From NCBI GenBank assembly GCA_001443495.1, contig LDXR01000020.1:15738-43710 (forward strand): 27,973 bases of DNA, in the 5' to 3' direction. The translations under genes and the position numbers were made by a program. Below, piece after piece: positions 1,473-27,935 of the stretch. This DNA is from a candidate division NC10 bacterium CSP1-5 (lineage in GTDB: Bacteria; Methylomirabilota; Methylomirabilia; Methylomirabilales; CSP1-5). Position 1 is the stretch's first letter. Each line of letters starts with the position of its first letter. The notes under the pieces are model-generated. The model did no database searches. It was not told where the DNA came from and was given only the letters and a program-made list of their open reading frames with translations.

Positions 1473-1515
1473 TGACCATTGACCGTTGACCGACGACGTG
1501 GGGGGCCATGACCCG
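1473..1515. repeat. period-7 imperfect tandem repeat between kinase and regulator
   Basis: Three heptamers TGACCAT, TGACCGT and TGACCGA run in register from 1473 to 1493. A related copy TGACCCG sits at 1509-1515. On the minus (coding) strand this reads GGTCAAC, GGTCAAT, GGTCATC, and the next heptamer in register is the regulator's own Shine-Dalgarno, GGAGGAG. It lies inside the kinase-regulator operon and would be part of its mRNA. Confidence 0.6.
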
Positions 1516-1519
1516 GTGA

Positions 1520-3118
1520 CTATGAAGTCCTTTCGGTTATCGGTGAGCGGTCGCCGGGATGGAGGGGGAGTTCGACGGTGAAGGCCGTTCCCTCTCCCGG
1601 GCGACTTTCGACGGAAATCCTCCCTCCGTGGTCTTCGACGATGCGTCGGCAGATCGGGAGCCCCAGTCCTGTTCCCCGGGGTTTCGTCGTAAAAAAGAGG
1701 TCGAAGATCCGGTCTTGATGCCCAGGGGGGATCCCGCACCCGGTGTCGCTGATAGTCAGCTTTACCTGGTCGGCCTCGCCCTGTCTCTCCGCTAGATGGC
1801 CCTCGGTGCGCATGGTCACGGTCCCCTCGGGGGGAGTCGCTTCCAGAGCGTTCTTCAAGAGATTCAAGACGACCTGCTTGAGCTTGTCCGGATCCGCGAG
1901 GAGCCACGGCAGGTGGGGATCATAGGCCCTGTGCAGAAGGATGGAGCGCTCGCGGATTTCTCCGGCGTACAGGTGGCAACACGCGTCCAGGAGCTGGTGG
2001 AGATCGGTCGGTCTCAGCTCGAGACGCGACTCCCGCCCGAAGAGGAGAAGGTCGCTCACCAGGACATTCAGGCGCTGAGTCTCAAAGAGCATCGCGTCCA
2101 CCAGCTCTTGATGGGCTGAAGGAAGAGCCACCTCTCGTTTCAGGATCTGGGCCACGGACGTGATCCCAAAGAGGGGGTTCCGGATCTCATGGGCGACGCC
2201 CGCCACCACCTGACCGATGGCGGCGAGACGGTCTTTGCGGCGAAGCTCGGCCTGGAGCTGTTTGATCTCACTCAGATCCCGGAAGATGACGATGACCCCC
2301 TCTCGGTTTCCCCGGACATCCGTGAGGTACGAGTTGGTGAAGCCGAGGGGAATGGTGGTGCCGTCTCGGAGGGCCAGCTCGAGCTCCCGGTGACTGGACT
2401 CGCCGCGGACTTCCAGCAACTCGCCCCCGTTGGGGAAGAGGTCGGTCAGTTTACGATCGATGAGATCGGCGGCGTCGCAGCGCAGGGCGAGGGCTCCCTG
2501 GGGGTTGATCAGGGTCATGACTCCGCCCGAATCGGTCACCATCAGTCCGCTGGCCAGGTGACTGATGATGCTCTCGGTGAGGTGCTCGCTCCGGTGGAGT
2601 TCGGCGGTGCGCGCCTCGATCCGCTCTCGTAGGTCCGCCGCCAATTCGTGCGTGAGCTGGTGGAGACGGCTCAGCTCCGCCACCTTTTCGTGCAGGGCAT
2701 GGACGAGCCGGTCATTCTGTACCAGGACACGGTGGTGCGCCTCGGCCCGCCTGACCGCGGCGGCGAGCGCCTCCGGTTCGAGCGGTTTTGGCATATAATC
2801 GTACGCGCCGTGCTTCACGGACCCGATGGCGCTCTGGAGTGACGCATAGGCGGTGATCATGATCACCGGAGTCAAGGGGGCAACCCGGGCGAAGTGGGTC
2901 AAAGCCTCGACCCCGCCCATCCCGGGCAGCATCACATCCAGGAGGATCACGGCGGGGGGATCGGCCTGGGCTGCCCCGAGGGCCTCGTGAGCGTCGGTCG
3001 CCGTTCGGACCTGGAAGCCTGCCTGGCCAAGGATATCGGCGCAGAATTCCCGTATGACGCGCTCGTCGTCCACGACGAGGACGGTCGGTTTAGCTATTTC
3101 CAGAGAGGCGGGTCCCAT
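1520..3118 (-). CDS. receiver-PAS-histidine kinase (hybrid sensor)
   Basis: This 532-residue sensor kinase is cytoplasmic by sequence, with no membrane segment seen. An N-terminal receiver (about 11-125; DD17-18, phospho-acceptor D61, K111) leads into a coiled-coil-like linker (about 130-180) and a PAS domain (about 180-285). Then come the HisKA H-box AGVAHEIRNP with phospho-acceptor H310, and an HATPase (N-box around N423, G1 DTGCGI 458-463, G2 GTGLGL 482-487). The frame is open up to a TTG at 3205. I chose the ATG at 3118 because GGGGAAG lies just before it, the receiver starts shortly after it, and a promoter-like sequence at 3147-3175 would place transcription start near 3140. It likely phosphorylates the downstream NtrC-type regulator. 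A receiver N-terminal to a kinase suggests input from another kinase. The signal is unknown. Confidence 0.92.
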   Translation of the reverse strand: MGPASLEIAKPTVLVVDDERVIREFCADILGQAGFQVRTATDAHEALGAAQADPPAVILLDVMLPGMGGVEALTHFARVAPLTPVIMITAYASLQSAIGSVKHGAYDYMPKPLEPEALAAAVRRAEAHHRVLVQNDRLVHALHEKVAELSRLHQLTHELAADLRERIEARTAELHRSEHLTESIISHLASGLMVTDSGGVMTLINPQGALALRCDAADLIDRKLTDLFPNGGELLEVRGESSHRELELALRDGTTIPLGFTNSYLTDVRGNREGVIVIFRDLSEIKQLQAELRRKDRLAAIGQVVAGVAHEIRNPLFGITSVAQILKREVALPSAHQELVDAMLFETQRLNVLVSDLLLFGRESRLELRPTDLHQLLDACCHLYAGEIRERSILLHRAYDPHLPWLLADPDKLKQVVLNLLKNALEATPPEGTVTMRTEGHLAERQGEADQVKLTISDTGCGIPPGHQDRIFDLFFTTKPRGTGLGLPICRRIVEDHGGRISVESRPGEGTAFTVELPLHPGDRSPITERTS

Positions 3119-3146
3119 CGTCTTCCCCACTCGATCCTGCGCCCGT

Positions 3147-3175
3147 AAGGTATCAAGGAGGTCGCAAGTTTTCAA
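3147..3175 (-). promoter_or_regulatory. candidate sigma-70 promoter of the kinase-regulator pair
   Basis: On the minus strand TTGAAA (3170-3175) is followed after 17 bases by TACCTT (3147-3152). The -35 matches consensus at 5 of 6 positions, the -10 only at 3 of 6. The predicted start near 3140 fits translation from the ATG at 3118. Confidence 0.35.
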
Positions 3176-3207
3176 CAGGAATGTCCTGCCGCCCACGGGG
3201 ATCAACG

Positions 3208-3237
3208 TTGACAGTGATCCGGCGAGCCCCGTATGAT
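3208..3237 (+). promoter_or_regulatory. strong sigma-70 promoter for tilS
   Basis: TTGACA (3208-3213) is a perfect -35, and TATGAT (3232-3237) is a 5-of-6 -10 with an 18-base spacer. Transcription would begin near 3244, almost on the tilS Shine-Dalgarno, giving a very short leader. It is placed back to back with the kinase promoter. Confidence 0.7.
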
Positions 3238-3258
3238 CAGCCGTAAGGAGGGAAGCCT

Positions 3259-4692
3259 GTGCGAGAGGAGGTTTTCTCCGCGGTTCAACGAGCGATCACG
3301 ACGCACCGGCTTCTGCAGCCGGGAGAAGGGGTGGTGGTGGCGGTCTCGGGCGGCGCCGACTCCATCGTCTTGCTTCACTGCCTGCTCCGACTTCGCGGGC
3401 CATGGTCCCTCGAGCTTTCCGTGGCACATTTCGATCATCGCCTTCGGGAGACCTCCCGACAGGATGCCCTCTTTGTCGAGGGGGTTGCCGCCTCGTGGGG
3501 CCTGCCGGTGACGACGGGGACCTGGGCGCGAGAGGGGCGTCGCGACCGGTCGCTTCAGGCAGAGGCCCGGCAGGCACGCTACCGCTTTCTTGAGGAGGTG
3601 GCATCCCGGGTGGGGGCGACCAAGATTGCCTTGGGGCACCACCGGGACGACCAGGCAGAGACGGTTCTCCTTCACCTCCTCAGGGGCTCGGGCCTTCGAG
3701 GACTGAGAGGGATGCTGCCGCTCAGCGATGAGCGCCTGATTCGGCCGCTGCTCGACGTGGGGCGAGAGGAGATCGAGGCCTATGTCAAGGCGCATCAGCT
3801 CTCCTTCATGGAGGATCCCTCAAATCGAGACCTCCGCTACCGCCGAAATCGGGTCCGGTGGCGACTCGTCCCGTTGCTTGAGCGGGAGTATAATCCCTCG
3901 GTGGCGAGAGGTCTCGCGCGCATGGCGGCCCTGATCGCCCAAGACGAAGCCTATCTTGACGAGATTGCCCGGGAATCCTCGAAGGGCCTCGTGAGTATCG
4001 AGGGGGAAACGATCTACCTGAGGCTGAGCTCTCTGCAGGCCTTGGCGCCCGCGATTCGACGCCGCATTCTTGAGCGGGCGATTCGGAGTGTGACCCCGGG
4101 CGCATATCTCACCGCCTCCCATCTCGAGGCGGTCGACAGACTGACGGCGCCCGGCGGTCCTGGAGCGGCATCGCTTCCCCAGAATATGAGGGCATGGAGG
4201 TCTCAAGGGTTCCTGTATGTGGGGAGGCGCCGCCCGGAGTCGCGCTCTTCCGTGGTCCGTGAAGAGTTGCCGGTGCCCGGCGAGGTGCTCATCCCCGCAT
4301 GGGGGGTCAGGGTGGAGGCCGCGATCCAGACCGTGCCGATGACCGATCTCCGGGGTGCCGGCCCAGAGCGGGCATATGTGGATTGGAAGCAGGTCGTTCC
4401 TCCGCTCGAGGTGCGCAGTTGGAGGTCGGGCGATCGCTTTCGCCCCCTGGGGCTCAAGGGGAGCAAGAAGCTTCAAGATCTCTTCGTCGATGCCAAGGTC
4501 CCTCGGGAGAGTCGGGAACAGGTCCCCGTGGTCACGGATCAGCAGGGGATTCTGTGGGTGTCCGGGTTGCGGATCGATGAACGGGGACGAGTGGGGGGAG
4601 CGACCGAGCAGGTGTTGGTCCTGACATTGCATCGCGAGGGAGGCTCCGGGGAGGCTTCGCCTCGCCCATGGGACTTGGCATCTCGTGAGTGA
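3259..4692 (+). CDS. tilS: tRNA(Ile)-lysidine synthase
   Basis: TilS attaches lysine to C34 of the minor isoleucine tRNA with anticodon CAU, using ATP, so that it reads AUA and is charged with isoleucine. This is essential for decoding fidelity in the cytoplasm. The 477-residue product begins with an N-type PP-loop ATPase domain (SGGADS at 30-35). Next come the HFDHRLR and LGHHRDDQAET motifs, a middle substrate-binding region, and a TilS C-terminal domain (WRSGDRFRPLG, then KKLQDLFVDAKVPR), so it is the long form of the family. The start is GTG at 3259, preceded by TAAGGAGGG. It heads a plus-strand housekeeping run with ftsH next, an arrangement seen in many bacteria. Confidence 0.97.
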   Translation: MREEVFSAVQRAITTHRLLQPGEGVVVAVSGGADSIVLLHCLLRLRGPWSLELSVAHFDHRLRETSRQDALFVEGVAASWGLPVTTGTWAREGRRDRSLQAEARQARYRFLEEVASRVGATKIALGHHRDDQAETVLLHLLRGSGLRGLRGMLPLSDERLIRPLLDVGREEIEAYVKAHQLSFMEDPSNRDLRYRRNRVRWRLVPLLEREYNPSVARGLARMAALIAQDEAYLDEIARESSKGLVSIEGETIYLRLSSLQALAPAIRRRILERAIRSVTPGAYLTASHLEAVDRLTAPGGPGAASLPQNMRAWRSQGFLYVGRRRPESRSSVVREELPVPGEVLIPAWGVRVEAAIQTVPMTDLRGAGPERAYVDWKQVVPPLEVRSWRSGDRFRPLGLKGSKKLQDLFVDAKVPRESREQVPVVTDQQGILWVSGLRIDERGRVGGATEQVLVLTLHREGGSGEASPRPWDLASRE

Positions 4693-4703
4693 TATGCTAT
4701 TTT
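4675..4703 (+). promoter_or_regulatory. candidate promoter for ftsH inside the 3' end of tilS
   Basis: TTGGCA (4675-4680) and TATTTT (4698-4703) are separated by 17 bases. The -10 is preceded by TGC, making an extended -10. Matches are 5 of 6 and 4 of 6. The region is locally AT-rich compared with its surroundings. It would let ftsH be transcribed independently of tilS. Confidence 0.45.
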
Positions 4704-4752
4704 CTATACTCCCAGGTGACAGGTGCCCTGGTGGCGTCCAGTCCCGGATCCG

Positions 4753-4760
4753 AAGGAGGG
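4753..4760 (+). promoter_or_regulatory. ribosome binding site that fixes the ftsH start
   Basis: AAGGAGGG lies 7 bases before a TTG at 4768. This favours that TTG over the in-frame ATG at 4723, which has no such site and would add 15 residues in front of the membrane anchor. Confidence 0.7.
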
Positions 4761-4767
4761 TTGGCAG

Positions 4768-6558
4768 TTGAGTCCGTTGATGAAAAATATGGCCCTCTGG
4801 CTGGTGATCATCCTGAGCATGATTCTCCTCTTCGGTATCTTCAGCCAGAGTCAGACGGGAAGGAAGGAGCTCAATTTCAGCGAGTTTCTGGCGCGAGTTG
4901 AGCAGGGGGAGGTCGCGGAAGTAGAGCTCAAGGGGGCGGCCATCACCGGAAAGCTCAAGGATGGCACCCCCTTCCAGACCTACGCCGCCGAGGACCCCGA
5001 GCTGATCCCGAGCCTCCGGAAACAGGGGGTGGTCATCTCTGCTAAGCCCGTGGAACAGACCCCCTGGTGGAGCTTGGTCCTCAACTGGCTGCCGATGCTC
5101 CTCTTCATCGGCGTCTGGGTCTTCTTCATGCGCCAGATGCAGGGCGGAGGCGCCAAGGCCCTCTCCTTTGGAAAGGCGAGGGCCCGGCTCCTCACGGAGA
5201 AACAGAACCGGGTGACCTTTGCGGATGTGGCGGGCGTGGACGAGGCCAAGGAGGAGCTGGAAGAGATCATCGAGTTTCTCAAGGACCCCCAGAAGTTCCA
5301 GAAGCTCGGTGGTCGGATCCCCAAGGGGGTTCTGCTGATGGGGCCGCCGGGGACGGGGAAGACCTTGCTGGCCCGCGCCATTGCGGGTGAGGCCAATGTC
5401 CCGTTCTTTTCGATCTCTGGTTCTGACTTCGTGGAGATGTTTGTGGGCGTCGGGGCCTCTCGGGTCCGCGACCTGTTTGAGCAGGGGAAGAAGCATGCCC
5501 CCTGCATCATCTTCATGGATGAGATTGACGCGGTCGGTCGGCATCGGGGGGCGGGGCTTGGGGGCGGCCATGACGAACGGGAGCAGACGCTGAACCAGCT
5601 CCTGGTCGAGATGGATGGCTTCGAGTCGAACGAAGGCGTGATTCTCATCGCCGCGACCAATCGGCCCGATGTGTTGGACCCGGCGCTGCTTCGGCCGGGG
5701 CGGTTCGATCGACAGGTGATAGTGGCGCGGCCCGATATTCGCGGCCGGGAGGAGATCCTGAAGGTCCACGTCAAGAAGATCCCCCTCGCACCCGATGTAG
5801 ACCTGGCGATCCTGGCCCGAGGGACGCCGGGGTTCTCCGGGGCGGATCTGGCGAATCTCGTGAACGAGGCGGCCCTCCTGGCCGCGCGGGAGGACAAGAA
5901 ATTTGTCGAGAGGAAGGACTTTGAGAGCGCCAAGGACAAGGTCCTCATGGGGGTGGAGCGCAAGAGCCTGATCTTGAGTGAGGAAGAGCGGCGGGCCACG
6001 GCCTATCATGAGGCGGGGCATGCTCTGGTGGCCAAGCTCATCCCAGGGGCCGATCCGATCCACAAGGTGACGATCATCCCGCGAGGCCGGGCCCTCGGCA
6101 TTACCCAACAGCTCCCGATGGACGAGAAGCACAACTACCATCGGGAGTATCTGTTGGACAATATCACCATCCTTATGGGGGGCCGGGTGGCGGAGGAGCT
6201 GGTGCTGGGGCACATGAGCACCGGGGCGGGGAACGACCTGGAGCGCGCCACGGATCTCGCCCGCAAGATGGTATGTGAGTGGGGGATGAGCGAGAAGCTG
6301 GGTCCCCTGACCTTTGGGAAACGAGAGGAGATGATCTTCCTGGGGAAGGAGATCGCCCAGCATCAGGACTATAGCGAACAGACGGCCCAGGAGATCGATC
6401 AGGAAGTCCGCCGCTTTGTCATCGAGGCCTATGAGCGGGCCAAGGAGCTGGGCAAATCCCGGATCGGAGCACTCCACGCCCTGGCTGCTGCCCTGTTAGA
6501 GCGGGAGGTGTTGGAGGGACCGGAGATTGATGTCATCATCACAGGGGCACCCGCCTGA
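4768..6558 (+). CDS. ftsH: ATP-dependent zinc metalloprotease FtsH
   Basis: FtsH is a hexameric membrane-anchored AAA+ protease that degrades misassembled membrane proteins and short-lived regulators. From the TTG start the protein has 596 residues. It has two membrane segments (about 8-26 and 101-121) flanking a small periplasmic domain. The AAA+ module carries Walker A GPPGTGKT (192-199), Walker B IIFMDEID and the second region of homology [18 protein letters not shown]. The M41 peptidase has the zinc site HEAGH (414-418) and a downstream third ligand D490 in [10 protein letters not shown]. The C-terminal tail after the protease domain is short and lacks the long polar extension seen in some homologues. 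folP starts inside its last codons, so the two are translationally linked. All catalytic residues are present. Confidence 0.97.
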
Positions 6559-7429
6559 GACCTGGGCGCCTCCCGGCGATCGGCTGCCCCCACTCCGGTG
6601 CCGGCGCTTCTCCCTCGACGTGGCGGCCCGCACGCGGATCATGGGGGTCCTTAATGTGACCCCCGATTCTTTTTCCGATGGGGGGCGGTATCTCGATCCG
6701 GGCCGGGCGGCCGAGCACGCCCATCAGATGGTCGAGGAGGGGGCCGATCTGATCGATGTGGGCGGAGAGTCGACTCGACCGGGATCCCTACCGGTCTCGA
6801 CCGAAGAAGAGCTTCGCCGGATCCTTCCAACCCTCAGGCACCTGGTCGATAAGCTTCCCGTGCCCATCTCCGTGGACACCACCAAGGCCGACGTGGCGGC
6901 CGCGGTGTTGGCGGAGGGGGTAGATGTGATCAATGACATCAGCGGCCTCGGCTTCGATCCTCGCGTGGCGTCGGTGGTAGCAGAAGCGGGGGCCGGTCTC
7001 ATCCTGGGACACATGCGAGGGACGCCCCGGACGATGCAGCAGGATCCCCGGTACGCTGACCTGCTGGTGGACGTTCGGGAGCATCTCAGGGAGCGGATCC
7101 TCTTGGCCGAGGCGGCCGGCGTGCATCCTGAGGCCATCGTGGTGGATCCCGGGATAGGGTTTGGGAAGAGCGTCGACCACAATCTACTTCTGCTGAAATG
7201 CCTACCGGAGCTTCACGGGCTGAAAAAGCCCATCCTGGTCGGGCCGTCCCGGAAGTCCTTCATCGGGAGGATCCTGGATCTGCCGATCGAGGAGCGGACG
7301 GAGGGAACGGCGGCCGCAGTCGCCGTGGCCATCTGGCAGGGTGCCCATATCGTCCGGGTGCACGATGTCCGGGCCACGGTCCGGGTCGCCCGAATGACCC
7401 AGGCCATTCGGGGGGCATCTGGGCCCTGA
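6530..7429 (+). CDS. folP: dihydropteroate synthase
   Basis: FolP condenses p-aminobenzoate with 6-hydroxymethyl-dihydropterin diphosphate to make dihydropteroate in folate synthesis; sulfonamides target it. Family signatures are in order: [32 protein letters not shown] with [26 protein letters not shown], and the C-terminal GPSRKSF loop that binds diphosphate. The 299-residue version starts at ATG 6530, 29 bases inside ftsH. This leaves about 37 residues before the GVLN core, longer than the roughly 18 in the E. coli enzyme. Start choice is therefore less certain than the function. The stop codon is embedded in the GTCGAAGGG-type repeat region that follows. Confidence 0.95.
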
Positions 7430-7555
7430 GCGGCTCGACTGAGGCCTCCACGGTGAGCTCGGCCGAACCGCTCACCGCCCTGAGCACGTCGAAGGGTTCG
7501 CCGCAGTCTTGTCGAGGGGTCTTGGTCTGAGCTTGTCGAAGGGTGGTTCGATCGA
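7424..7555. repeat. intergenic repeat region with CTGAGC...GTCGAAGGG motifs
   Basis: The folP-glmM spacer is built of related segments: CTGAGCACGTCGAAGGG, then a degenerate CTTGTCGAGGGGTC, then CTGAGCTTGTCGAAGGGTGG. Before these comes an inverted repeat GGTGAGCTCGG / CCGCTCACC. A CTGAGC-TTGTCGAAGG motif resembles a dispersed intergenic repeat I recall from many unrelated bacterial genomes; that link is from memory. The first copy overlaps the folP stop codon. No open frame or recombinase is associated. Confidence 0.6.
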
Positions 7556-7575
7556 CATCGCAGGGCGGTAGATAC

Positions 7576-7582
7576 AAAGGAG
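7576..7582 (+). promoter_or_regulatory. ribosome binding site that fixes the glmM start
   Basis: AAAGGAG is 8 bases upstream of GTG 7591. The longer in-frame start at 7543 lies in repeat-derived sequence with no such site. Confidence 0.65.
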
Positions 7583-7590
7583 CGCGGTTC

Positions 7591-8940
7591 GTGGGGAAGT
7601 TCTTTGGGACCGACGGGGTGCGCGGCGTCGCTAACGAAGAGCCGATGACGCCGGAGACAGTGGTGAAGCTCGGTCGGGCGGCCGCCTATCTGTTCAAGAC
7701 GCGGGCGGGCAGGCACAAGATCGTCATCGGGAAGGATACGCGGCTCCACGGCTATATGCTGGAGTGCGCCCTGACGTCCGGGATCTGTTCGATGGGGGTG
7801 GATGTCCTGCTGGTCGGTCCCCTCCCGACTCCCGGAATCGCTTTTATCACGCGGACGCTGCGGGCCGATGCAGGCATTGTCATCTCCGCGTCCCACAATC
7901 CCTTTGAGGACAACGGGATCAAGTTCTTCTCCGGGGAAGGGCTCAAGCTGCCAGATGAGATGGAGGCGCGCATCGAGGAGCTCATTGAGAGCCGGGAGAT
8001 CGAGCGACTTCGCCCGCTTGCCGCCGAGATCGGCAAGGCCTATCGAGTCAATGATGCGGCCGGCCGATACATCGAGTTTGCCAAGGGGACCGTCCCCAAG
8101 GGGCTTGCCTTTCAAGGGCTCAAGGTCGTGGTGGATTGCGCCCACGGAGCCACGTACAAGGTGGCCCCCACGATCCTCAGGGAACTCGGGGCCATGGTCA
8201 TCCCTTTGAACATCCAGCCGAACGGGGTCAATATTAACGACGGCTGCGGCTCCCTCTATCCAGGGGTGGTGAGAGAGGCGGTCCTGAAGCACAAGGCCGA
8301 CGTGGGCATCTCACACGACGGGGACGGAGATCGGGTGATCCTGGTGGACGAGACCGGGTCGGTGCTTGACGGGGATCATATCCTGGCCATCTGCGCCCTT
8401 GATCTGAAGAGGCAGGGCCTCCTCCGGTCGGATACCCTCGTAGCGACGGTGATGAGCAATGTCGGACTCGAAGTCTGTTTGAAGGAGGCAGGCATCGCCG
8501 TCGTGCGGGCCCCGGTGGGAGATCGCTACGTCTTGGAAGAGATGCTCCGGCACGGGTACAGTTTGGGCGGAGAGCAGTCCGGACACATCGTCTTCCTCGA
8601 TCACAATACGACCGGAGACGGAGTGGTGACGGCGCTGCAGGTCCTCTCTCGAATGGTGACGGCGCAGGAGCCTCTCTCGAAGCTTCGGCGGTATATGACC
8701 GTGTATCCCCAGGTCTTGATCAACGTTCGGGTGACCGAGAGGCAGGACCTGGGATCGGTCCCTGCCGTGCAGGGGGCGATCGCGAAGGCCGAGGCGCAGC
8801 TTGACGGAGGCGGGCGGGTCTTGGTGCGCTATTCGGGGACCGAGCCAGTCGCCAGGGTGATGGTGGAGGGACGGGACGCCGAGCAGGTGGGACTTCTGGC
8901 GAGATCGATCGCGCAGGTCATCGAGAAAGAATTGGGATAG
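7591..8940 (+). CDS. glmM: phosphoglucosamine mutase
   Basis: GlmM converts glucosamine-6-phosphate to glucosamine-1-phosphate on the way to UDP-GlcNAc, feeding peptidoglycan and lipopolysaccharide. From GTG 7591 the product has 449 residues, the usual family length. It opens with [13 protein letters not shown], carries the catalytic phosphoserine loop SASHNP (active serine about 101), the metal loop DGDGDR, the sugar-specificity motif GGEQSGH, and the C-terminal phosphate site RYSGTEP. All four domains of the alpha-phosphohexomutase fold are represented. The folP-glmM order is common and couples folate and cell-wall genes in many bacteria. Confidence 0.97.
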
Positions 8941-8960
8941 GACTCGGCATCGGTGATCGG

Positions 8961-9698: not shown

Positions 9699-9746
9699 AC
9701 TCAGTCCTCAGTCCTGAGTGCGAGGACTCAGTGACGAAAACTGAGC
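9699..9746. repeat. period-7 dyad repeat between pdxJ and acpS
   Basis: Heptamers ACTCAGT, CCTCAGT and CCTGAGT run in register from 9699, then GCGAGGA and CTCAGTG, and CTGAG returns around 9741. The left part and the GAGGACTCAG that follows are near reverse complements, so the transcript could fold into a hairpin. It directly abuts the pdxJ stop codon and lies within the operon. Confidence 0.6.
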
Positions 9747-9778
9747 CAACTGTGATAGGGGAGGGTGTTCGCCGGACG

Positions 9779-10156: not shown

Positions 10157-10162
10157 TGGGGA

Positions 10163-10236
10163 GCAGTCCGCAGTCCGCTATCAGCATCAAAGGCTCTTAG
10201 CTGAGGGCTGGCTGCTGACAGCTGACGGCTATACAG
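10163..10236. repeat. period-7 dyad repeat directly before nnr
   Basis: GCAGTCC occurs twice in tandem (10163-10176), followed in register by GCTATCA and GCATCAA. The second half reads GCTGAGG, GCTGGCT, GCTGACA, GCTGACG, GCTATAC with a strict period of 7. TCAGC-type and GCTGA-type units face each other, giving dyad symmetry around 10185-10200. The repeat runs to within four bases of the nnr start codon. Confidence 0.65.
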
Positions 10237-11985: not shown

Positions 11986-11997
11986 GCCAGGGGGCGA

Positions 11998-18772: not shown

Positions 18773-18822
18773 GGAGCGGTCTTCCGTGCGGTGCGTGCCA
18801 TTTGATTGATCAGGAGCTAGAC

Positions 18823-20040: not shown

Positions 20041-20070
20041 AGAGCACGTGTGCGTAGCGCGGGAGGAGTG

Positions 20071-20250
20071 ATGATCGACAAGGAGTTCTTGGAGATTCTG
20101 GCCTGTCCTGCCTGCAGAGGTGAGGTCCGGCTCGATGAGGTGGGCCGGAGGATCATCTGCCAGGCGTGCGGTCGCCGGTATCCCATTCGGGATGGGATCC
20201 CCGTCATGCTCATCGACGAGGCAGAGATGCCCTCCCGGGAGGGAAAATGA
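20071..20250 (+). CDS. Trm112/YcaR-like small zinc-binding protein
   Basis: This 59-residue protein of the Trm112p-like (UPF0434) family has two CxxC pairs: LACPACRG near the start and ICQACGRRYPIRDGIPVML. This matches the family pattern of a zinc knuckle followed by YPIRDGIP. In eukaryotes and archaea Trm112 is an activating partner of methyltransferases; the bacterial role is mostly unknown. ATG 20071 follows GGGAGGAGTG, so the ribosome site is tight (four bases). It could be co-transcribed with the upstream substrate-binding protein gene. Confidence 0.85.
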   Translation: MIDKEFLEILACPACRGEVRLDEVGRRIICQACGRRYPIRDGIPVMLIDEAEMPSREGK

Positions 20251-20285
20251 GAGCGGCGGGATCACCTTCTCCGAGCGGGGTGTGA

Positions 20286-20301
20286 GGCCGATGGATCGGC
20301 C
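20286..20301. other. short perfect inverted repeat between convergent genes
   Basis: GGCCGAT-GG-ATCGGCC is a 7-base palindrome in the 58-base spacer between the Trm112-like and PHP genes. It has no T-run on either strand, so it is at best a weak or Rho-assisted stop for both. Confidence 0.35.
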
Positions 20302-20308
20302 GGGTGTG

Positions 20309-21157: not shown

Positions 21158-21264
21158 GGGACAGTCTCCGTAGCTCTTTCCCCACAGGACCATGATCAGG
21201 CGTGCTGCTCTCCTCGACTATACGCATGCAGGGCTGCCGCCGTCAACGGCACGGGTCGCCTTTT

Positions 21265-21281
21265 TTGGCATGCCGCATGCA
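21265..21281 (+). promoter_or_regulatory. candidate sigma-54 (-24/-12) promoter before the signalling cluster
   Basis: TTGGCATG-CCGC-ATGCA matches the sigma-54 consensus TTGGCACG-N4-TTGCA at all but two positions. The invariant GG (21267-21268) and GC (21279-21280) are exactly ten bases apart. Transcription would start near 21292, 24 bases before ATG 21316, with AGAGGG in between. I could not assign an enhancer-like site upstream. Confidence 0.5.
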
Positions 21282-21315
21282 CAAGCTGGCGTAGACATTC
21301 GCTGCAGAGGGTGTA

Positions 21316-23325
21316 ATGCCTTCTCACGTGACTCCCCGGGGGAATCCGGATTTCGAGCCCGTCTTCGGCCCCGTGCTCGAACAGATCGTGGGGCTCTTAG
21401 AAGCCGAGGCGGGAGTGCTCTGGGTCTGGGAGGAGACGGCCGCCGCCTACGTTCCTGCCCTCTGTCGCGGTCGAGGGAGTTGGGCGGCCCCCTGGAGCCC
21501 TTCTCATCCTGAGGGGATTGGCCGCGGAGATCTCGATCCGTCGCAGGAGACACTCCTCTTCGATGACCTCCCGCCCGACTCTCCTCTACCGGCTGGCGAG
21601 CAAAAGATTCGCTCCTTCGCGAGCGTGCCGATTGCGGTGAGGGCGAGCGGAGCCGGATTTTTGGCCCTGTACAGTCGGCGGCGAGGTCACTTTGCCTCTC
21701 GGGATCTTCGCTTTCTCCAGATGGTGGGGGAACTGATGGGTCGGACGATCGAACAGCTGGGCGCTGCAGGGGGCGCTCAGGCTGGCCCAACGGCGGGGTC
21801 CATCGCCGAGTTTCGGCAGGTCGGGGACGTCAGCAGCATGCTGATCGACGCCGTGGATGTGGGGGTCCTGGTGCTCGATACGGAAGGCCGGTGGTCGTTC
21901 GGAAACCGCCAGATCTACGAGATGCTCGGCTACGAGCCTGGGGAAGGCCCGGGCCGATCGGGAGGCCCGGACCCTGATGCTCCTCCGGGGTTCCGCGCCA
22001 GCGATCTTGCCAGGCTGAAGCGACGGGACCGGGCCTGCGTCTTTGAGACCAGGCTGTTCCGAAAGGATGGGAGCACCTTCACCGCCTTGGTGAGCAGCAC
22101 GCCGCGACGAGGGGCCAGCGAGGAATCGCTCGGGACCATCGTCTTGGTGACTGATATCACCGAACGCAAGCAGTGGGACCAGCAGGTGTTGCGCTCGGAG
22201 AAGCTGGCGGCCTTGGGGACCCTCGCAGCGGGAGTGGCCCACAACATCAACAACGTCCTTGCGGCCATCGTCGCCAGGACCGATTTGCTCCTGCGGCAGG
22301 TTCAGGACCGCGAGCTGAAGCGATGGCTGAACAGCATCCAGCAATCGGCCCTGGACGGGGCGAGCACCGTCCGCCGCCTTCAGGATTTTGCCCGGACCGG
22401 GGCACCCGAATCGATGGTCCCCGTGGACCTCAACGGAGTGATCACCGAGGTCCTGCAGTTTACGCAGGCCCGGTGGAAGGATGAGGCAGAGCTGAAGGGG
22501 ACCAGGATCGACGTCGTCACGGAGCTCGGCGACACCCCACTCATCACGGGAAACCCCCCGGAGCTTCGGGAGGTCTTTACCAACGTCATCCTCAATGCGC
22601 TGGACGCCATGCCGGATGGCGGATGCCTCATCGTGCGGACCTGTGTCGAGCCGGGCCGAGATGAGGGGCCATGGGTTGAGGCGGTCTTTGAGGACACCGG
22701 GGTGGGAATGACCGAGGAGGTGCGCCAGAAAATCTTCGATCCGTTCTTCACCACCAAGGGGGTGAAGGGGACCGGGCTGGGCCTCAGCACCTCGTATGGA
22801 ATCGTCGCCCGACACCGCGGCTCGATCTCGGTGGAGAGTGAGCTTGGACGGGGCAGTCGGTTTTGCGTCGCCTTTCCGGTTCCGGCAGAACTGCCGCGAA
22901 GCCCGGAAGACCACGCGCGCCCGGTTGGGCGTCGGACGGGGCGCATCCTGGTGATCGACGACGAACCGCATCTCAGAGATGTGATCACCAACCTCCTCAG
23001 GCTGGAGGGGCATATGGCCGTGGGGGTGGGGTCCGGAATCGAAGGGGTCGAGGCCTTCCGGGTAGAGCCCTTCCAGGTGGTGATCACGGATCTGGGGATG
23101 CCGGACCTCACCGGGCTGGAGGTGGCCCGAAAGGTTCGAGAGCTCAACCCGGAGGTCAAACTCATCCTCTGCACTGGGTGGAATGCGGCCGTGAGTCAAA
23201 CGGAGCAGGAGGCCGTGGGGATCGATCGGCTGCTCGAAAAGCCCTTTCGGCTGGACAAGCTCCTCCGCCTGGTCCACGAGCTCCTGCGGACCGGTGCTCA
23301 GGCGGAGCCGCGGCGGCAACGCTAA
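21316..23325 (+). CDS. GAF-PAS-histidine kinase with C-terminal receiver
   Basis: This 669-residue soluble hybrid kinase has a GAF-like domain (about 10-150; ends with SVPIAVRASGAGFLALYS and the helix around 130-150). A PAS domain follows (about 172-285, VLDTEGRWSFGNRQIYEMLG, ending in VTDITERKQ). The HisKA H-box AGVAHNINNVL has His309. The HATPase has an N-box around N427, DTGVGM at 460-465, FDPFFTTK and GTGLGLS at 485-491. A C-terminal receiver (about 543-660) has DD548-549, phospho-acceptor D592 and K642. The H-box has Asn after the histidine where Glu or Asp is usual. ATG 21316 has AGAGGG four bases upstream. The next kinase gene starts 10 bases after the stop codon. The signal is unknown; GAF plus PAS suggests a small-molecule, redox or light-type input. 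Confidence 0.93.
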   Translation: MPSHVTPRGNPDFEPVFGPVLEQIVGLLEAEAGVLWVWEETAAAYVPALCRGRGSWAAPWSPSHPEGIGRGDLDPSQETLLFDDLPPDSPLPAGEQKIRSFASVPIAVRASGAGFLALYSRRRGHFASRDLRFLQMVGELMGRTIEQLGAAGGAQAGPTAGSIAEFRQVGDVSSMLIDAVDVGVLVLDTEGRWSFGNRQIYEMLGYEPGEGPGRSGGPDPDAPPGFRASDLARLKRRDRACVFETRLFRKDGSTFTALVSSTPRRGASEESLGTIVLVTDITERKQWDQQVLRSEKLAALGTLAAGVAHNINNVLAAIVARTDLLLRQVQDRELKRWLNSIQQSALDGASTVRRLQDFARTGAPESMVPVDLNGVITEVLQFTQARWKDEAELKGTRIDVVTELGDTPLITGNPPELREVFTNVILNALDAMPDGGCLIVRTCVEPGRDEGPWVEAVFEDTGVGMTEEVRQKIFDPFFTTKGVKGTGLGLSTSYGIVARHRGSISVESELGRGSRFCVAFPVPAELPRSPEDHARPVGRRTGRILVIDDEPHLRDVITNLLRLEGHMAVGVGSGIEGVEAFRVEPFQVVITDLGMPDLTGLEVARKVRELNPEVKLILCTGWNAAVSQTEQEAVGIDRLLEKPFRLDKLLRLVHELLRTGAQAEPRRQR

Positions 23326-23335
23326 GGGGGCATGC

Positions 23336-24490
23336 GTGGGCGTCAACGAGCCGGCGATCCTGATCGTGGATGATGAGGAGGAGAACCGGATGCTCCTGGA
23401 GGCCCTCCTGGGCTCGCAAGGGTACCGGGTGGTGACTGCGGCCGATGGGGCGCAGGGCTTCGCGGCCGTCAAGACCGATCCTCCGGACCTGATCCTGCTT
23501 GACGTCATGATGCCCGGACAGGATGGATTCGAAGTATGCCGGCAGCTGAAGGCAGACCCGGCGACCTGGTTCATCCCGGTGGTATTGGTCACCGCCTTGA
23601 GCGAGCGGGAGGATCGGATCCGCGGGATCGAGGCGGGGGCGGACGACTTTCTGTCCAAGCCGATTCACCGGTGGGAGCTCCTGACGCGGACCAAATCGTT
23701 GTTGCGGATCAAGAGCCTGCGCGATGATTTGCAGAAGAGCTATGAGCAGCTCAAGAGGCTGGAAGAGCTCCGGGACCGACTCATTCATCTCCTGATTCAC
23801 GACCTCAAGGGGCCACTGACCTCCCTGCTCCTCGGGGCGGACCTGTTGATATCCCATGAGGGGGAGCCGGTGGTAGAGGAGAAACACTGGGAGCTTCTTC
23901 GCCGGATGCGGCAACAGGTGGAGTATCTGACCGATATGGTGCAGAGCCTCTTGGACATCGCCCGGATGGAGGAGGGAAAGCTCCCCCTCCGACCCGAGGC
24001 GCTTGCGGTGGGAGAACTCGTGGGAAATGCTGCAGCTGAGCTTGGGGTCCCGTATGCCAGCAAGGGCGTGTCGCTCCGAACTGAGGTCCCCTCCGGCCTC
24101 CCGCCGGTCCATGGTGATCGCGATCTCCTCAAGCGGGTCCTCCTGAATCTGCTCAAGAATGCTCTGGACCACACCCCTGTGGATGGCCAGGTGACGGTCG
24201 GGATCCAGCCGGAGAATGCGGAATCGCTGACGATATGGGTTCACGACACGGGGGTGGGAATCCCGCAGGCCTTCCACGAGAAGATCTTCGAGAAATTCGG
24301 CCAGGTCGAGCTTCGCGAGGCGCACGAGCGGCGGGGGACCGGTCTGGGTCTCACCTTCTGCAGGTTGGCGGTCGAGGCCCACGGAGGGCGCATCTGGGTA
24401 GAGAGTGCAGAAGGCAAGGGGAGTCGCTTCTCCTTCACGGTTCCTTCTGTGCGTGCCGAGATGCCTGACGCAGCGGGAGGCGGCCGATGA
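23336..24490 (+). CDS. receiver-histidine kinase
   Basis: This 384-residue soluble kinase has an N-terminal receiver (about 6-122; D12/D13, phospho-acceptor D56 in ILLDVMMPG, K108). A helical linker (about 125-148) follows, then HisKA with His155 in LIHDLKGPL and HATPase (N275 in LLKNALDHT, DTGVGIP, GTGLGLTFC). GTG 23336 follows AAGGGGG by five bases and comes 10 bases after the preceding kinase's stop codon. Its last codons overlap the next start (ATGA), so it is translationally coupled. The receiver-first layout suggests it is itself controlled by phosphotransfer, plausibly from the upstream kinase. No sensor domain of its own is visible. Confidence 0.92.
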   Translation: MGVNEPAILIVDDEEENRMLLEALLGSQGYRVVTAADGAQGFAAVKTDPPDLILLDVMMPGQDGFEVCRQLKADPATWFIPVVLVTALSEREDRIRGIEAGADDFLSKPIHRWELLTRTKSLLRIKSLRDDLQKSYEQLKRLEELRDRLIHLLIHDLKGPLTSLLLGADLLISHEGEPVVEEKHWELLRRMRQQVEYLTDMVQSLLDIARMEEGKLPLRPEALAVGELVGNAAAELGVPYASKGVSLRTEVPSGLPPVHGDRDLLKRVLLNLLKNALDHTPVDGQVTVGIQPENAESLTIWVHDTGVGIPQAFHEKIFEKFGQVELREAHERRGTGLGLTFCRLAVEAHGGRIWVESAEGKGSRFSFTVPSVRAEMPDAAGGGR

Positions 24491-25419
24491 CGCAGAAGGT
24501 GGCGCGGATCTTGATCGTGGATGATGATATGTCTGTCGCCCTGGTGATCCGCGAAGTTCTCGAGGGCGAAGGACACCACGTCACCACGTTCCATACGGGC
24601 CGGGATGGGGTTCGGGTCTTTAGCCGGGAGCGATTCGATCTGGTCATGCAGGATGTGAACCTTCCCGGGGGCGTCTCGGGGTACGGCGCCTGTCAGACCT
24701 ACAAGTCGATTCGGGATGCGACGGCGGTCATCATGATGACCGGGGAGTTCACGAGCGATCAGGATGAGGCCCTGGCCCGCCGGTTGGGGGCCGACGGTTT
24801 CCTGAGAAAACCCTTCACGCGAGAGCAGCTCCTCCGGGCGGTGGGCGAGGGGCTCAAGGGCCGGGCGGAGTGGCTCGGGGATCGGCCGGTCTTTGTTTGT
24901 CGGGCGTGCGGTGTTCGCTTTGCCGTCTGGGATGCGATTTCCCACGTGGAGACTTTCCCGGTCTACTGTCCCAATTGCGGCCAGGTGACCCAGGTGAAGC
25001 CAGAGGAACTCGCCTGGGAAACCGCCGACGAGCGCCGGGGCCCCCAGGGGCCCGAGGCACGGCGGATCCTGGTGGTGGAGGATGATGAGCTCTTTCGCCG
25101 GTTCCTCACGGATCTCTTGACGAGGGCCGGCCATGTGGTCCTCGCAGCGAAGAACGGCAAGGAAGGTCTCCAGTTCTGTCAGCAGTGGAAGCCAGAGCTG
25201 GTGGTTGCGGACCTGCTCCTCCCCGAGATGGACGGGATCACGATGTGCCGCCAGATCCGGGAAAGCCCTCGGACGGCGCAGATTCCTATTATGGTCCTCA
25301 CCGCCTTCCAAAGCGACGCCTCCAGGGAGGAGGCGCGGAAGATGGGAGCCACCTACCTCACGAAACCCATCGAGCCCGGGAATCTCCTGGACACCGTGGC
25401 CCGGATCGTCAGTCGCTAG
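24487..25419 (+). CDS. tandem receiver protein with internal zinc ribbon (REC-ZnR-REC)
   Basis: This 310-residue protein has two complete receivers. REC1 (about 6-124) has DDD 12-14, phospho-acceptor D56 in VMQDVNLPGG, T85 and K108. REC2 (about 192-308) has E198/D199/D200, phospho-acceptor D242 in VVADLLLPEMDG, T272 and K293. Between them lies a four-cysteine segment, CRACG (C138, C141) and CPNCG (C161, C164), separated by 19 residues, as expected for a rubredoxin-like zinc ribbon. No DNA-binding, cyclase or phosphodiesterase domain is present. Output may be phosphotransfer, protein contact or nucleic-acid contact by the ribbon. ATG 24487 overlaps the kinase stop codon. The order of domains is clear; the role is inference. 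Confidence 0.9.
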   Translation: MTQKVARILIVDDDMSVALVIREVLEGEGHHVTTFHTGRDGVRVFSRERFDLVMQDVNLPGGVSGYGACQTYKSIRDATAVIMMTGEFTSDQDEALARRLGADGFLRKPFTREQLLRAVGEGLKGRAEWLGDRPVFVCRACGVRFAVWDAISHVETFPVYCPNCGQVTQVKPEELAWETADERRGPQGPEARRILVVEDDELFRRFLTDLLTRAGHVVLAAKNGKEGLQFCQQWKPELVVADLLLPEMDGITMCRQIRESPRTAQIPIMVLTAFQSDASREEARKMGATYLTKPIEPGNLLDTVARIVSR

Positions 25420-25423
25420 CAGG

Positions 25424-25520
25424 TAGAATGCTAGAATGCGAGGAGGCGTTCCAGCGTTCTAGCATCCCAGCTTTCCAGCATTCCAGCATAGTAGCGTCCT
25501 GGCATCCCAGCATCCGAGCA
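25424..25520. repeat. period-8 dyad repeat upstream of gltX
   Basis: Eight and a half octamers of the type AGCATYCC run in strict register (AGC or GGC at 25453, 25461, 25469, 25477, 25485, 25493, 25501, 25509 and 25517). To their left, GAATGCTA and GAATGCGA (from 25426 and 25434) are the same unit in reverse complement. The whole could fold into a long imperfect hairpin. It begins right after the tandem-receiver gene's stop codon and ends 15 bases before the gltX promoter. Confidence 0.7.
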
Positions 25521-25535
25521 GGATTGTGAAAGGGG

Positions 25536-25565
25536 TTGACGGGCTCGTTTTCCCCTGGGGATAAT
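25536..25565 (+). promoter_or_regulatory. sigma-70 promoter for gltX-greA
   Basis: TTGACG (25536-25541) and GATAAT (25560-25565) each match consensus at 5 of 6 positions, with an 18-base spacer. Transcription would begin near 25572, about 30 bases before the gltX start codon. Confidence 0.65.
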
Positions 25566-25600
25566 AGGCGAGGTGTTGGAGGGAGGGAAGCATAGTCACA

Positions 25601-27043
25601 ATGAATGAGCGGATCCGCGTGCGGTTCGCCCCGTCGCCGACCGGCCATCTCCACGTGGGGGGGGCACGGACGGCCCTGTATAACTGGCTCTTCGCCCGGC
25701 ATCACGGCGGGGTTTTTCTCCTGCGGATCGAGGACACCGACGTCGACCGCTCGACGGAAGAGTCGGTTGAGGCGATCGTGGAGAGCCTGAAGTGGCTCGG
25801 GCTGGATTGGGACGAGGCGCCCTATCGCCAGGCGGAGCGGCTCTCGATCTATCGGGAGTATGCCGAGCGGCTCCTCAAGGCAGGCAGGGCCTATCGATGC
25901 GTCTGCACCCCCGAGGAGCTCGAGGAGCGCCGCAGAGCGGCCCTCGCGGCGGGGCGCTCCCCTCACTATGACGGCCGATGTCGGGATCGGCGGGTGGAGC
26001 CGGAAAGACCCTGGTCGCTTCGCCTCCGGGTGCGAGATTCCGGGGTGACCGTCGTTGACGACCTCATCCACGGAGAGGTCCGCTTTGACAATGCCGAACT
26101 GGATGATTTCATCCTGATGCGATCGGACGGAATGCCGACGTATAATTTTGCCGTCGTCGTCGATGACGGCTTGCTGCAGATCACGCACGTGATCCGGGGG
26201 GATGATCATCTATCCAACACCCCGAAACAGACCCAGGTCTACCACGCCCTGGAGCTTCCCGTGCCCCGATTTGCCCACGTCCCCATGATCCTCGGCCCAG
26301 ACCGGACGCGCCTGTCCAAACGCCACGGGGCGACCTCGGTGCTGGCGTATCGAGACCTGGGGTATCTCCCCCAGGCGATGGTGAATTATCTTGTCCGTCT
26401 GGGCTGGTCTCACGGAGATCAGGAGATCTTCAGTCGGGAGGAGCTCATTCGCTATTTCGATATCGGGCAGGTGGGCCATGCCCCGGCCATCTTCGATCAG
26501 GCCAAGCTCGACTGGCTGAACGCCCATTACCTCCGGGAAGCGGATCCGAAGTGGCTGGCGGACCTCCTCCTCCCATTCTATGAGCAGGCGGGGATCCCTC
26601 CGGGCGAGATCGAGGCCAAGGCGGGCGCGTGGTCGAGTTCGGGCAAGGGAGGGACCTTCGACGAGGCGGTCATCCGTACTTTTCGGGAGCGGGCCAAAAC
26701 GCTCAGGGAACTTGCCCAGAACTCCCGCTTTCTCTTCCGGGTCCGCATCGATTATGATCCCCAGGCTGTGGAAAAGCATCTTCGGCCTCAGGCCCTGACG
26801 CACCTCCGTGAGGTTCACGGCAGGCTCCAGGGGACGAGCCCCTTTGACGCCGCGACCCTCGAAAGACTCTACCGAGATTTCGCGGCCGAGCGCACACTCA
26901 AGCTGGGAGACGTGGCCCAGCCCACCCGCGTCGCCGTGACCGGTGGATCGGTGAGCCCCCCGCTGTTTCTCGTGATGGAGCTGGCGGGCCGCGAGATATG
27001 TGTGGAGCGGCTTGCGGCGGTTCTGGAGCGGGGTGCCGCGTAA
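25601..27043 (+). CDS. gltX: glutamyl-tRNA synthetase
   Basis: GltX attaches glutamate to tRNA-Glu; non-discriminating forms also charge tRNA-Gln for later amidation by GatCAB. The 480-residue class I enzyme has FAPSPTGHLHVGGART, where HLHV (16-19) is the HIGH motif, and RLSKRHG (KMSKS motif, 237-241). It also has a zinc site of the E. coli type: C100, C102, Y123 and C127. The C-terminal helical anticodon-binding domain follows from about 330. ATG 25601 has GGAGGGAGG about 14 bases upstream. greA follows after 30 bases. tRNA-Glu and tRNA-Gln genes lie downstream, which fits either charging mode. Confidence 0.97.
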   Translation: MNERIRVRFAPSPTGHLHVGGARTALYNWLFARHHGGVFLLRIEDTDVDRSTEESVEAIVESLKWLGLDWDEAPYRQAERLSIYREYAERLLKAGRAYRCVCTPEELEERRRAALAAGRSPHYDGRCRDRRVEPERPWSLRLRVRDSGVTVVDDLIHGEVRFDNAELDDFILMRSDGMPTYNFAVVVDDGLLQITHVIRGDDHLSNTPKQTQVYHALELPVPRFAHVPMILGPDRTRLSKRHGATSVLAYRDLGYLPQAMVNYLVRLGWSHGDQEIFSREELIRYFDIGQVGHAPAIFDQAKLDWLNAHYLREADPKWLADLLLPFYEQAGIPPGEIEAKAGAWSSSGKGGTFDEAVIRTFRERAKTLRELAQNSRFLFRVRIDYDPQAVEKHLRPQALTHLREVHGRLQGTSPFDAATLERLYRDFAAERTLKLGDVAQPTRVAVTGGSVSPPLFLVMELAGREICVERLAAVLERGAA

Positions 27044-27073
27044 GGCAGCTTTCCGGGAGTGAGGAGGATCGCC

Positions 27074-27562
27074 GTGGGTCTACAGGAGCTGCTCAACACG
27101 CTGCGGGGGGAGCTGAGCGCATTGAAAAAGGAGTTCCGGATCGATATCCCGCAGAAGATCGAGCAGGCACGCCTCCTCGGGGATCTCAGCGAGAATGCGG
27201 ATTACCACGCGATGAAAGAGCGACAGGGATTCGTCCGAGCACGGATCATCTTTGTGAAGCAGCGGATCGCCTCCCTCTCGGCGATCGATCCGCGGTCCGT
27301 CCCCCAGGATCGCGTGGGGTTCGGCTCGATTGTCCACCTCCGCGATACCGAGAACGGCGGGGAGCGGGTGGTCAAGCTCGTGGCGCCCGAGGAGAGTAAC
27401 GGGGAGAAGGGATGGGTCTCGATCGCCTCCCCGATCGGGCGGGGTCTGGTGGGACGGCGGGAGGGAGACGGGGTACGCATCCAAACTCCCGGGGGTGTGA
27501 AGACCTTCGAGGTGAAAAAATTCATCACGCTGCACGAGCAGAAAGAGCCATTTTCGGCTTGA
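27074..27562 (+). CDS. greA: transcription elongation factor GreA
   Basis: GreA enters the secondary channel of backtracked RNA polymerase and stimulates cleavage of the extruded RNA end. The 162-residue protein has the N-terminal coiled coil whose tip carries the acidic pair in GDLSENADYHAMKERQ. The C-terminal domain is FKBP-like (FGSIVHLRD, VSIASPIGRGLVGRREGD, then FEVKKF). I prefer GTG 27074 because GAGGAGG lies six bases before it; GTG 27059 would add five residues. It is in one transcript with gltX and is followed by a strong terminator. Confidence 0.95.
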   Translation: MGLQELLNTLRGELSALKKEFRIDIPQKIEQARLLGDLSENADYHAMKERQGFVRARIIFVKQRIASLSAIDPRSVPQDRVGFGSIVHLRDTENGGERVVKLVAPEESNGEKGWVSIASPIGRGLVGRREGDGVRIQTPGGVKTFEVKKFITLHEQKEPFSA

Positions 27563-27587
27563 CTTTCCGGCGCCCCTCAGCGATAGT
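27559..27587 (+). promoter_or_regulatory. promoter-like sequence at the greA stop codon
   Basis: TTGACT (27559-27564) and GATAGT (27582-27587) are 17 bases apart (5 of 6 and 4 of 6 matches). A transcript starting near 27594 would meet the terminator at 27601 almost at once, so it cannot simply drive the tRNA genes. It may be fortuitous. Confidence 0.25.
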
Positions 27588-27600
27588 GAGGCCACTCATC

Positions 27601-27631
27601 GCCCGGATTCGCTGAATCCGGGCTTCTTTTT
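27601..27631 (+). terminator. Rho-independent terminator after greA
   Basis: A perfect 10-base-pair stem GCCCGGATTC / GAATCCGGGC with a three-base loop (GCT) is followed by TTCTTTTT. Confidence 0.92.
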
Positions 27632-27656
27632 AGCATTTCCGAATCAGGGGAGTCAT

Positions 27657-27730
27657 TGCGGGGTCGGATAACGGTAGTCCACCTGACTCTGGATCAGGTT
27701 GTCGAGGTTCGAGTCCTCGCCCCGCAGCCA
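27657..27730 (+). tRNA. trnQ: tRNA-Gln (anticodon CUG)
   Basis: The acceptor stem is TGCGGGG / CCCCGCA with discriminator G and an encoded CCA end (27728-27730). The anticodon stem CCTGA / TCAGG encloses the loop CTCTGGA, giving anticodon CTG. The T-arm GTCGAGGTTCGAGTCCTCG is regular. The U1-A72 pair is typical of bacterial tRNA-Gln. It is 74 bases long including CCA. Confidence 0.95.
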
Positions 27731-27746
27731 CACCCCTTCCGTTGCC

Positions 27747-27824
27747 GGCCCCATCGTCTAGCCCGGCCTAGGACGCCGCCCTCTCAAGGCGGAAACGCGG
27801 GTTCGAATCCCGCTGGGGCCACCA
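27747..27824 (+). tRNA. trnE: tRNA-Glu (anticodon CUC)
   Basis: The acceptor stem is GGCCCCA / TGGGGCC with discriminator A and an encoded CCA (27822-27824). The anticodon stem CCGCC / GGCGG encloses CTCTCAA, giving anticodon CTC. The T-arm contains GCGGGTTCGAATCCCGC. It is 78 bases long including CCA. It lies 16 bases after tRNA-Gln, so the two are probably one transcript ending at the terminator that follows. Confidence 0.95.
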
Positions 27825-27825
27825 G

Positions 27826-27863
27826 GCAATAAAAAGCCCGGATTTTCCGGGCTTTTTTATTGC
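27826..27863 (+). terminator. Rho-independent (bidirectional) terminator after the tRNA genes
   Basis: The stem AGCCCGGA / TCCGGGCT with loop TTT is flanked by A-run and T-run. The pairing extends outward through GCAAT / ATTGC with one bulged T. The A5 and T6 tracts would allow termination from either direction. Confidence 0.92.
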
Positions 27864-27935
27864 CAGAGCATTGGACCAGTGGAGCAATGGATCAATGGGC
27901 CAATGCGGTCTATTGATCTACTGTTCCATTGCTCG
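27864..27935. repeat. period-8 dyad repeat after the tRNA terminator
   Basis: Octamers ATTGGACC, AGTGGAGC, AATGGATC, AATGGGCC and AATGCGGT run in register. They are followed by octamers of opposite orientation: CTATTGAT, CTACTGTT and CCATTGCT. The two halves are imperfect reverse complements. Confidence 0.65.

Follow-up and report, generated by a model that had tools for sequence, protein, structure and literature searches.

Why should the spacers of one bacterial genome carry tandem units of seven or eight bases, with sequences unrelated from site to site and mostly arranged in dyads? The question is raised by five sites in a 27,973-nucleotide stretch of the candidate division NC10 bacterium CSP1-5 (contig LDXR01000020.1, here C20, bases 15738-43710; hereafter the window). 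A sequence-only reading of the window had proposed that the sites form one class of short-period repeats between genes, most of them dyad-symmetric and each with a unit of its own. All five were recovered where that reading had placed them, and its overall interpretation stands in part. The class is real, and copying of one element is indeed insufficient as a source of all five sites. The statement that the unit is different at each site had to be given up, since each window unit recurs in other spacers (families D, F, B, P and Q, described below). We tentatively regard the five sites as members of coexisting DNA-level families, putative tandem recognition sites that would be renewed in place in transcribed spacers; this is our favoured reading, held at somewhat less than an even chance.

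The host genome (2.77 Mb, 99.7% complete) was sampled for array counts over 1.24 Mb, including 143 kb of spacer DNA, and several hundred kb were taken from six genomes of the same genus, all metagenome assemblies. Genes were called with a simple home-made caller based on codon usage, and arrays were detected by lag self-match scores. At scores of at least 14 the spacers held 47 arrays at lag 7 and 26 at lag 8, and every other lag gave at most two, except lags 14 and 16, which are multiples. Shuffled spacers yielded approximately no lag-7 or lag-8 arrays. Coding DNA was poorer in arrays, 16-fold at lag 7 and about 200-fold at lag 8; the coding matches listed had units of the same kinds, and several lay where a gene call ends. 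Both comparisons by which the sequence-only reading had asked to be judged thus came out in its favour: the periodicity is absent from shuffled intergenic sequence, and the arrays are strongly intergenic.

Among five-mers, recurrence at lag 7 was led by GTTCA/TGAAC, GCTGA/TCAGC, CGGTC/GACCG, ATCGG/CCGAT, CGGAC/GTCCG and GGTGA/TCACC, and at lag 8 by CTAGC/GCTAG, CCAGC/GCTGG and GAGCA/TGCTC. The period-7 families comprise A (GTTCA-n-n), B (TCRGC-N-R), C (GTCCRA-N), D (GACCG-n-n), E (GGTGA-n-n) and F (CTCAGTC-like), and the period-8 families P (GCTRGNAN) and Q (GGAGCAAT-like). They were defined by regular expressions, of which the lag statistics are independent. A complete element consists of two convergent arrays, [unit]n-loop-[reverse complement]m, with a loop of varying length. 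The polarity of the arms is fixed (A 16:1, B 12:1, P 17:4, D 4:0, Q 4:0) and does not depend on the strand read, because a hairpin of this kind is turned into itself by reverse complementation.

The units themselves combine near-invariant core positions with two or three saturated ones, and their composition is alike in both arms and at all loci. In family A, GTTCA is followed by a non-A base and then a non-T base, with one exception in 150. Mismatches keep to particular phases of the unit (variance 2.28, against a null mean of 1.40 and a maximum of 1.65 among 300 nulls). At the variable positions, neighbouring units differ about as much as units taken from separate loci, and agreement between the two arms is at about the level seen between such units (end-unit tails excluded). 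This pattern fits tandem recognition sites whose free positions would have become saturated. A stop codon in every unit, with a period not divisible by three covering all frames, was considered and dropped, as the units of family C contain no stop. A literature search for the unit strings returned one match, which was unrelated.

Site 1 (1473-1515, minus strand, family D, period 7) reaches a lag-7 score of 12 over 1473-1497. Read on the minus strand, which is the direction of the flanking genes, it is an array of the 3'-arm type, CGGTCAA CGGTCAA TGGTCAT CGG. An inverted partner was sought and none was convincing, so that the site shows a single orientation (TGACCAT TGACCGT TGACCGA and a stray TGACC); its units recur elsewhere in the genome. 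Site 2 (9699-9746, plus strand, family F, period 7; lag-7 score 11 over 9700-9719) is a hairpin, CTCAGTC-CTCAGTC ... GACTCAG/ACTGAG, whose first base directly follows the pdxJ stop codon. In the sister species G005 its loop is occupied by another palindromic sequence, about 63 bases long. Site 3 (10163-10236, plus strand, family B, period 7; lag-7 scores 12 over 10200-10230 and 10 over 10163-10185) lies between acpS and nnrD/E, with AGCAGTCCGCAGTCCGCTATCAGC as 5' arm and GCTGAGGGCTGGCTGCTGACAGCTGACGGCT as 3' arm. Its spacer (10157-10236) holds B in the window's species, P in G002, and P together with a B 3' arm in G001. Site 4 (25424-25520, plus strand, family P, period 8, GCTRGNAN; lag-8 score 37), between a response-regulator gene and gltX, has a short 5' arm (TAGAATGC x2) and a long 3' arm of NTNCYAGC units; at the same place G005 has a P element with different arms, and the remaining spacer is almost unchanged. 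Site 5 (27864-27935, plus strand, family Q, period 8, GGAGCAAT/ATTGCTCC; lag-8 score 18 over 27866-27905) is a near-complete hairpin.

Sites 1-3 are weak singly, by Tandem Repeats Finder as by lag scores; their strength comes solely from being taken together and from their membership of families found across the genome. Under a second-order Markov null, the 3,048 bp of window spacer DNA would be expected to give about 0.01 lag-7 or lag-8 segments with a score of at least 11. Units of opposite orientation had been described at four of the five sites, and they were seen at 9699, 10163, 25424 and 27864, the site at 1473 being single-oriented. The described proximity to stop codons was likewise confirmed for four of five sites, which start about 1-7 bases from the stops of PdxJ (9698), AcpS (10156), the response regulator (25419) and a sensor kinase on the minus strand (1520). 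The fifth, site 5, follows a tRNA-Glu terminator.

Orthologous spacers were compared mostly for one species pair, the window's species and G005 (about 95% identity; G005 assembly 88% complete). Among 106 scorable spacers, 6 held the same family in both species and 8 a different family; in 2 the element was lost, in 2 it was found in G005 only, and 88 were empty in both. Spacers that did not keep their family thus held another one in 8 of 10 cases, compared with 2 of the 90 spacers empty in the window's species (p 1e-8). The switches (window's species/G005) include B/P at C2:184890, P/B at C2:282060 and C12:48579, A/B at C6:22113 and C12:58424, D/B at C17:3873 and A/C at C2:220402. At the exchanged spacers similarity breaks off close to the stop and start codons, with unchanged flanking genes; presence or absence and nesting of elements were seen, with boundaries that coincide with coding ends and no recognisable target duplication. 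The same kind of difference separates G003 from G006 at C2:189443, where the flanks are nearly identical. Import of spacers together with their flanking genes was discarded, as flank identity was not lower at replaced spacers (95.3%, versus 93.7% elsewhere), although a donor of similar identity could still have served.

Nesting suggests a route by which one family may replace another. P hairpins lie within B hairpins in G004, in G003 and in the window's genome, and at C12:48579 the window's genome has P next to a B remnant where G005 has B; A or B inside P was not seen. Scored as four exact units, P occurs in all 7 genomes of the genus and in none of 88 others from the phylum; family A extends further, into the order. 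With P restricted to the genus and A more widely spread, the inner family is also the younger.

The elements also avoid divergent spacers. At scores of at least 12 they were found in 73 of the 587 spacers between co-directional genes and in 7 of the 62 convergent ones, but in 1 of the 82 divergent ones (p 1.7e-4 with length matching). Many start a few bases past the upstream stop codon, and many end near the next start codon. Exclusion from promoter-bearing spacers alone could account for much of this placement without any function. In a spacer between two ribosomal-operon genes (C2:194480-194781), one hairpin lies on either side of a short uncalled open reading frame that looks like ribosomal protein L36, and both hairpins switch family among the seven species.

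From the observed families, fixed period, polarity and mismatch phases, together with the avoidance of divergent spacers, the in-place replacement and the nesting, a possible course of events can be pieced together. Working through the DNA itself, the modules would offer a putative factor or process a row of tandem, sequence-specific sites. They would be tolerated, or persist, in transcribed spacers, often directly after stop codons and away from promoters. A new hairpin may arise within or beside an older one whose outer arms are then lost, so that the spacer would keep an element but change its family. Several points weigh against this reading. No recognising protein or mobilising enzyme was identified, and the family definitions are post hoc, made after inspection of the data. 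Some recent slippage is visible. For 12 exchanged arrays no near-identical full-length copy was found elsewhere in either genome (G005 being 88% complete); plain copy-and-paste is therefore unsupported, and the origin of the new arrays is left unexplained. Saturated variable positions and frequent turnover also sit uneasily together, unless new arrays start out diverse.

The sequence-only reading had offered templated slippage across a hairpin as a shared generator, and slippage, the usual explanation of bacterial heptamer repeats, is a hypothesis already in print (PMC4692102; PMC4679880). A purely mutational origin, by replication slippage and template switching at hairpin-prone spacers and with neither recognition nor function, has direct traces in these genomes. 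Recent slippage in a P arm is seen in G005 as a near-perfect period-8 run, (GCTAGAAG)x6 (G005:C132:3151-3279, L156), and in G006 as consecutive GCTAGGAT/GCTAGGAA units (G006:C147:4246-4298). One-unit insertions and deletions occur between sister species, and C4:146830 carries the remnant of an arm-to-arm deletion. As a general generator, however, slippage is unlikely. The mismatches are phase-specific, arm polarity is fixed and the same unit families occur at many loci. Neighbouring units resemble each other no more than they resemble units elsewhere, and opposite arms match at the variable positions no more than by chance, which does not fit fresh slippage or the copying of one arm from the other. 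Slippage thus survives as an occasional event.

By analogy with the proposal of IHF/HU sites in Geobacter (PMC2700814), the arrays might instead be binding sites for nucleoid or regulatory proteins that organise the chromosome or regulate neighbouring genes; any family would then serve, which would allow family swaps. The sharp core, free positions and fixed spacing of the units are in keeping with this, as is the conserved occupancy of spacers whose content is exchanged, and the arrays are convergent at variable distance as in the Geobacter account (PMC2700814). We nevertheless consider it rather improbable. About eight families would require eight binders, and no binder is known; the elements have no preference for promoters; and the Geobacter proposal is itself untested (PMC2700814).

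A role in RNA, also raised by the sequence-only reading, would make the elements 3'-untranslated or intercistronic hairpins with a part in the stability, processing or insulation of operon mRNAs. Their presence in co-directional and convergent spacers and almost never in divergent ones, their frequent position right behind a stop codon and ahead of a ribosome-binding site, and the retention of an element of some family in the same spacer would suit such hairpins. Folding gave a divided answer: site 5 folds strongly (z -6.2), but sites 1-3 fold no better than shuffles, and the sense-strand folding advantage is uninformative because array-free spacers show it too. The mismatches in array hairpins count against the idea. 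On the transcript strand G.U and A.C mismatches are equal (202 and 194), so that RNA pairing is not what is conserved, and the arms match at variable positions no better than chance. Absence from promoter-bearing spacers accounts for the location without an RNA function. No sign of selection on RNA pairing thus accompanies the avoidance of divergent spacers, and we doubt an RNA-level role about as strongly as we doubt the protein-binding arrays.

The whole-family changes, with genes constant, could also be the work of a spacer-renewal process that would write new arrays in place in one step, without copying a locus. Such a process would have to produce convergent pairs of fixed polarity, built from units whose core and period are constant and whose other positions vary freely. 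We rate it as slightly more doubtful still.

Least probable are classical miniature mobile elements (REP/BIME, or miniature inverted-repeat transposable elements, MITEs) moved by a transposase such as the genome's single REP-type Y1 enzyme: the families are dispersed with lineage-specific copy numbers, the Q units sit in a dispersed element of about 100-130 bp with several copies and a REP-type transposase gene is present, but A, B, D and P arrays lack the near-identical copies that mark MITEs and that the Q-bearing element has in part, no conserved ends were seen outside the units, and the transposase (PF01797) was not found in array-bearing G001 (92% complete) and G004. The single transposase gene, of 231 aa (G000:C17:18932-19279; L141:1471-2166), is bordered on both sides by different palindromes of its own, AAAAGGTGTCAGGAACCTTTT (AAAAAGGTGTCAGGAACCTTTTT-type), with an inner CTTTTCCGCC repeat downstream. 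A link between the arrays and this transposase was rejected on account of these palindromes and because the enzyme was not found in G001 and G004.

The Q-bearing dispersed element consists of a AAACGCAC..GTGCGTTTACTTT palindrome, then the Q hairpin, then a tail like TTGTCACAAGATGAAATGCG, with pairwise matches of about 79-92% over about 100-140 bp. It lies at C5:10662-10792, C3:152610-152747, C4:16095-16220, C2:95880-96011, C5:8965-9092 and C16:3241-3338 and in the C1:41801 spacer. At 27825-27973, the end of both the window and contig C20, the tRNA-Glu terminator takes the place of the palindrome before the Q hairpin, and the contig stops 27 bases later, within the start of a second copy (CAGAGCATTGG).

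Other repeats share these genomes. A separate dispersed repeat of about 165 bp (C2:51096-51330), found by BLAST of the spacer at C2:50973, has copies 87-91% alike in at least ten other places in C2, C4, C5, C6, C7 and C17. Short palindromic repeats resembling GACTTCGGCGAGCTCAGTCGAGCCGTC or CCCTGAGCTTGTCGAAGGG, in some cases within or next to heptamer arrays, occur at window positions 7430-7590, at C5:64855, C2:51466, C2:286706, C3:146922 and C6:2638, and in the loop insert of site 2 in G005. Within the window gene at 7591-8940, a 30-bp tandem repeat is present in two copies (8624-8681). The ten window genes checked against Pfam were ordinary (e.g. PdxJ, AcpS, NnrD/E, GreA and two-component genes), and GltX (25601-27043) was named from its translation and full-length relatives. 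A search of Rfam matched solely the two tRNAs and no structured RNA family at the arrays. In IMG/VR, A and B arrays were found in at least 120 stretches each and P in 19; control patterns occurred as well (reversed cores 46 and 80, the A core at period 8 in 52), and a special phage link is therefore unsupported. Five IMG/VR contigs from other organisms (L301, L318, L485, L486 and L493) have many successive spacers with paired A-type (GTTCAAN) or B-type (GCTGANN) arrays, at a density far above that of the window's genome.

These genomes resolve repeats so far unexplained into parts that can be tested: separate families whose units have fixed and free positions, convergent arms of fixed polarity, residence in transcribed spacers, and no sign of selection on RNA pairing. 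Replacement of whole families between species about 95% identical calls for a mechanism of local rewriting, or for a function that any family can serve.

REPs are palindromes of 20-40 nt tagged GTAG or CGTC, and REP, BIME and REPIN elements go with RAYT transposases. The NC10 elements resemble them as short extragenic palindromic modules in many copies on the transcribed 3' sides of genes, and differ in that their arms are tandem heptamers or octamers with no tie to a transposase gene. Loci from other phyla also carry period-7 arrays of various units, in records labelled Nitrospirae, Nitrospinota, Deltaproteobacteria, Geomonas, Actinomycetota, Anaeromyxobacter and Atribacteria.

Intergenic heptamers are known from prokaryotes through a SPADE survey (PMC6344855) and as GGGAATC in Xanthomonas and GGGGAYT in Nostoc (PMC4692102). 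The NC10 elements share their period of 7, intergenic position, wide distribution and lack of an explanation (PMC6344855; PMC4692102), and the spacer enrichment over shuffles and coding DNA that delimits such heptamers and octamers as a class was found here. Xanthomonas also has 70-75 convergent inverted pairs. Xanthomonas and Nostoc each use one G-rich unit of the G-quadruplex type in many perfect copies (PMC4692102), whereas the NC10 elements have many units, two periods, free positions within the unit and exchange of whole families. The TAACTGA heptamers of Beggiatoaceae likewise lie in spacers near start codons, in 2-6 copies, but consist of one exact unit that is hardly ever inverted, in contrast to the convergent pairs, degenerate positions and several families seen here (PMC4679880).

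Geobacter metallireducens offers paired opposite-strand octamer and heptamer arrays of classes 1-3, described as "predicted global regulator binding sites" (PMC2700814). The likeness extends to tandem units of 7 or 8 bases, mostly in opposite-strand pairs at variable distance, and to dozens of copies in several classes per genome. The units GTTGCTYN, TCTCCGTS and MTYCTGA differ from GTTCA, TCRGC, GTCCRA, GACCG, GCTRGNAN and others here, and class 1 has four units, the outer two poor, which differs from the NC10 elements. The text consulted describes no comparison of orthologous spacers, family replacement or nesting (PMC2700814). The NC10 elements are a new variant of a known and unexplained kind of bacterial repeat, and comparative evidence is what they add to it.

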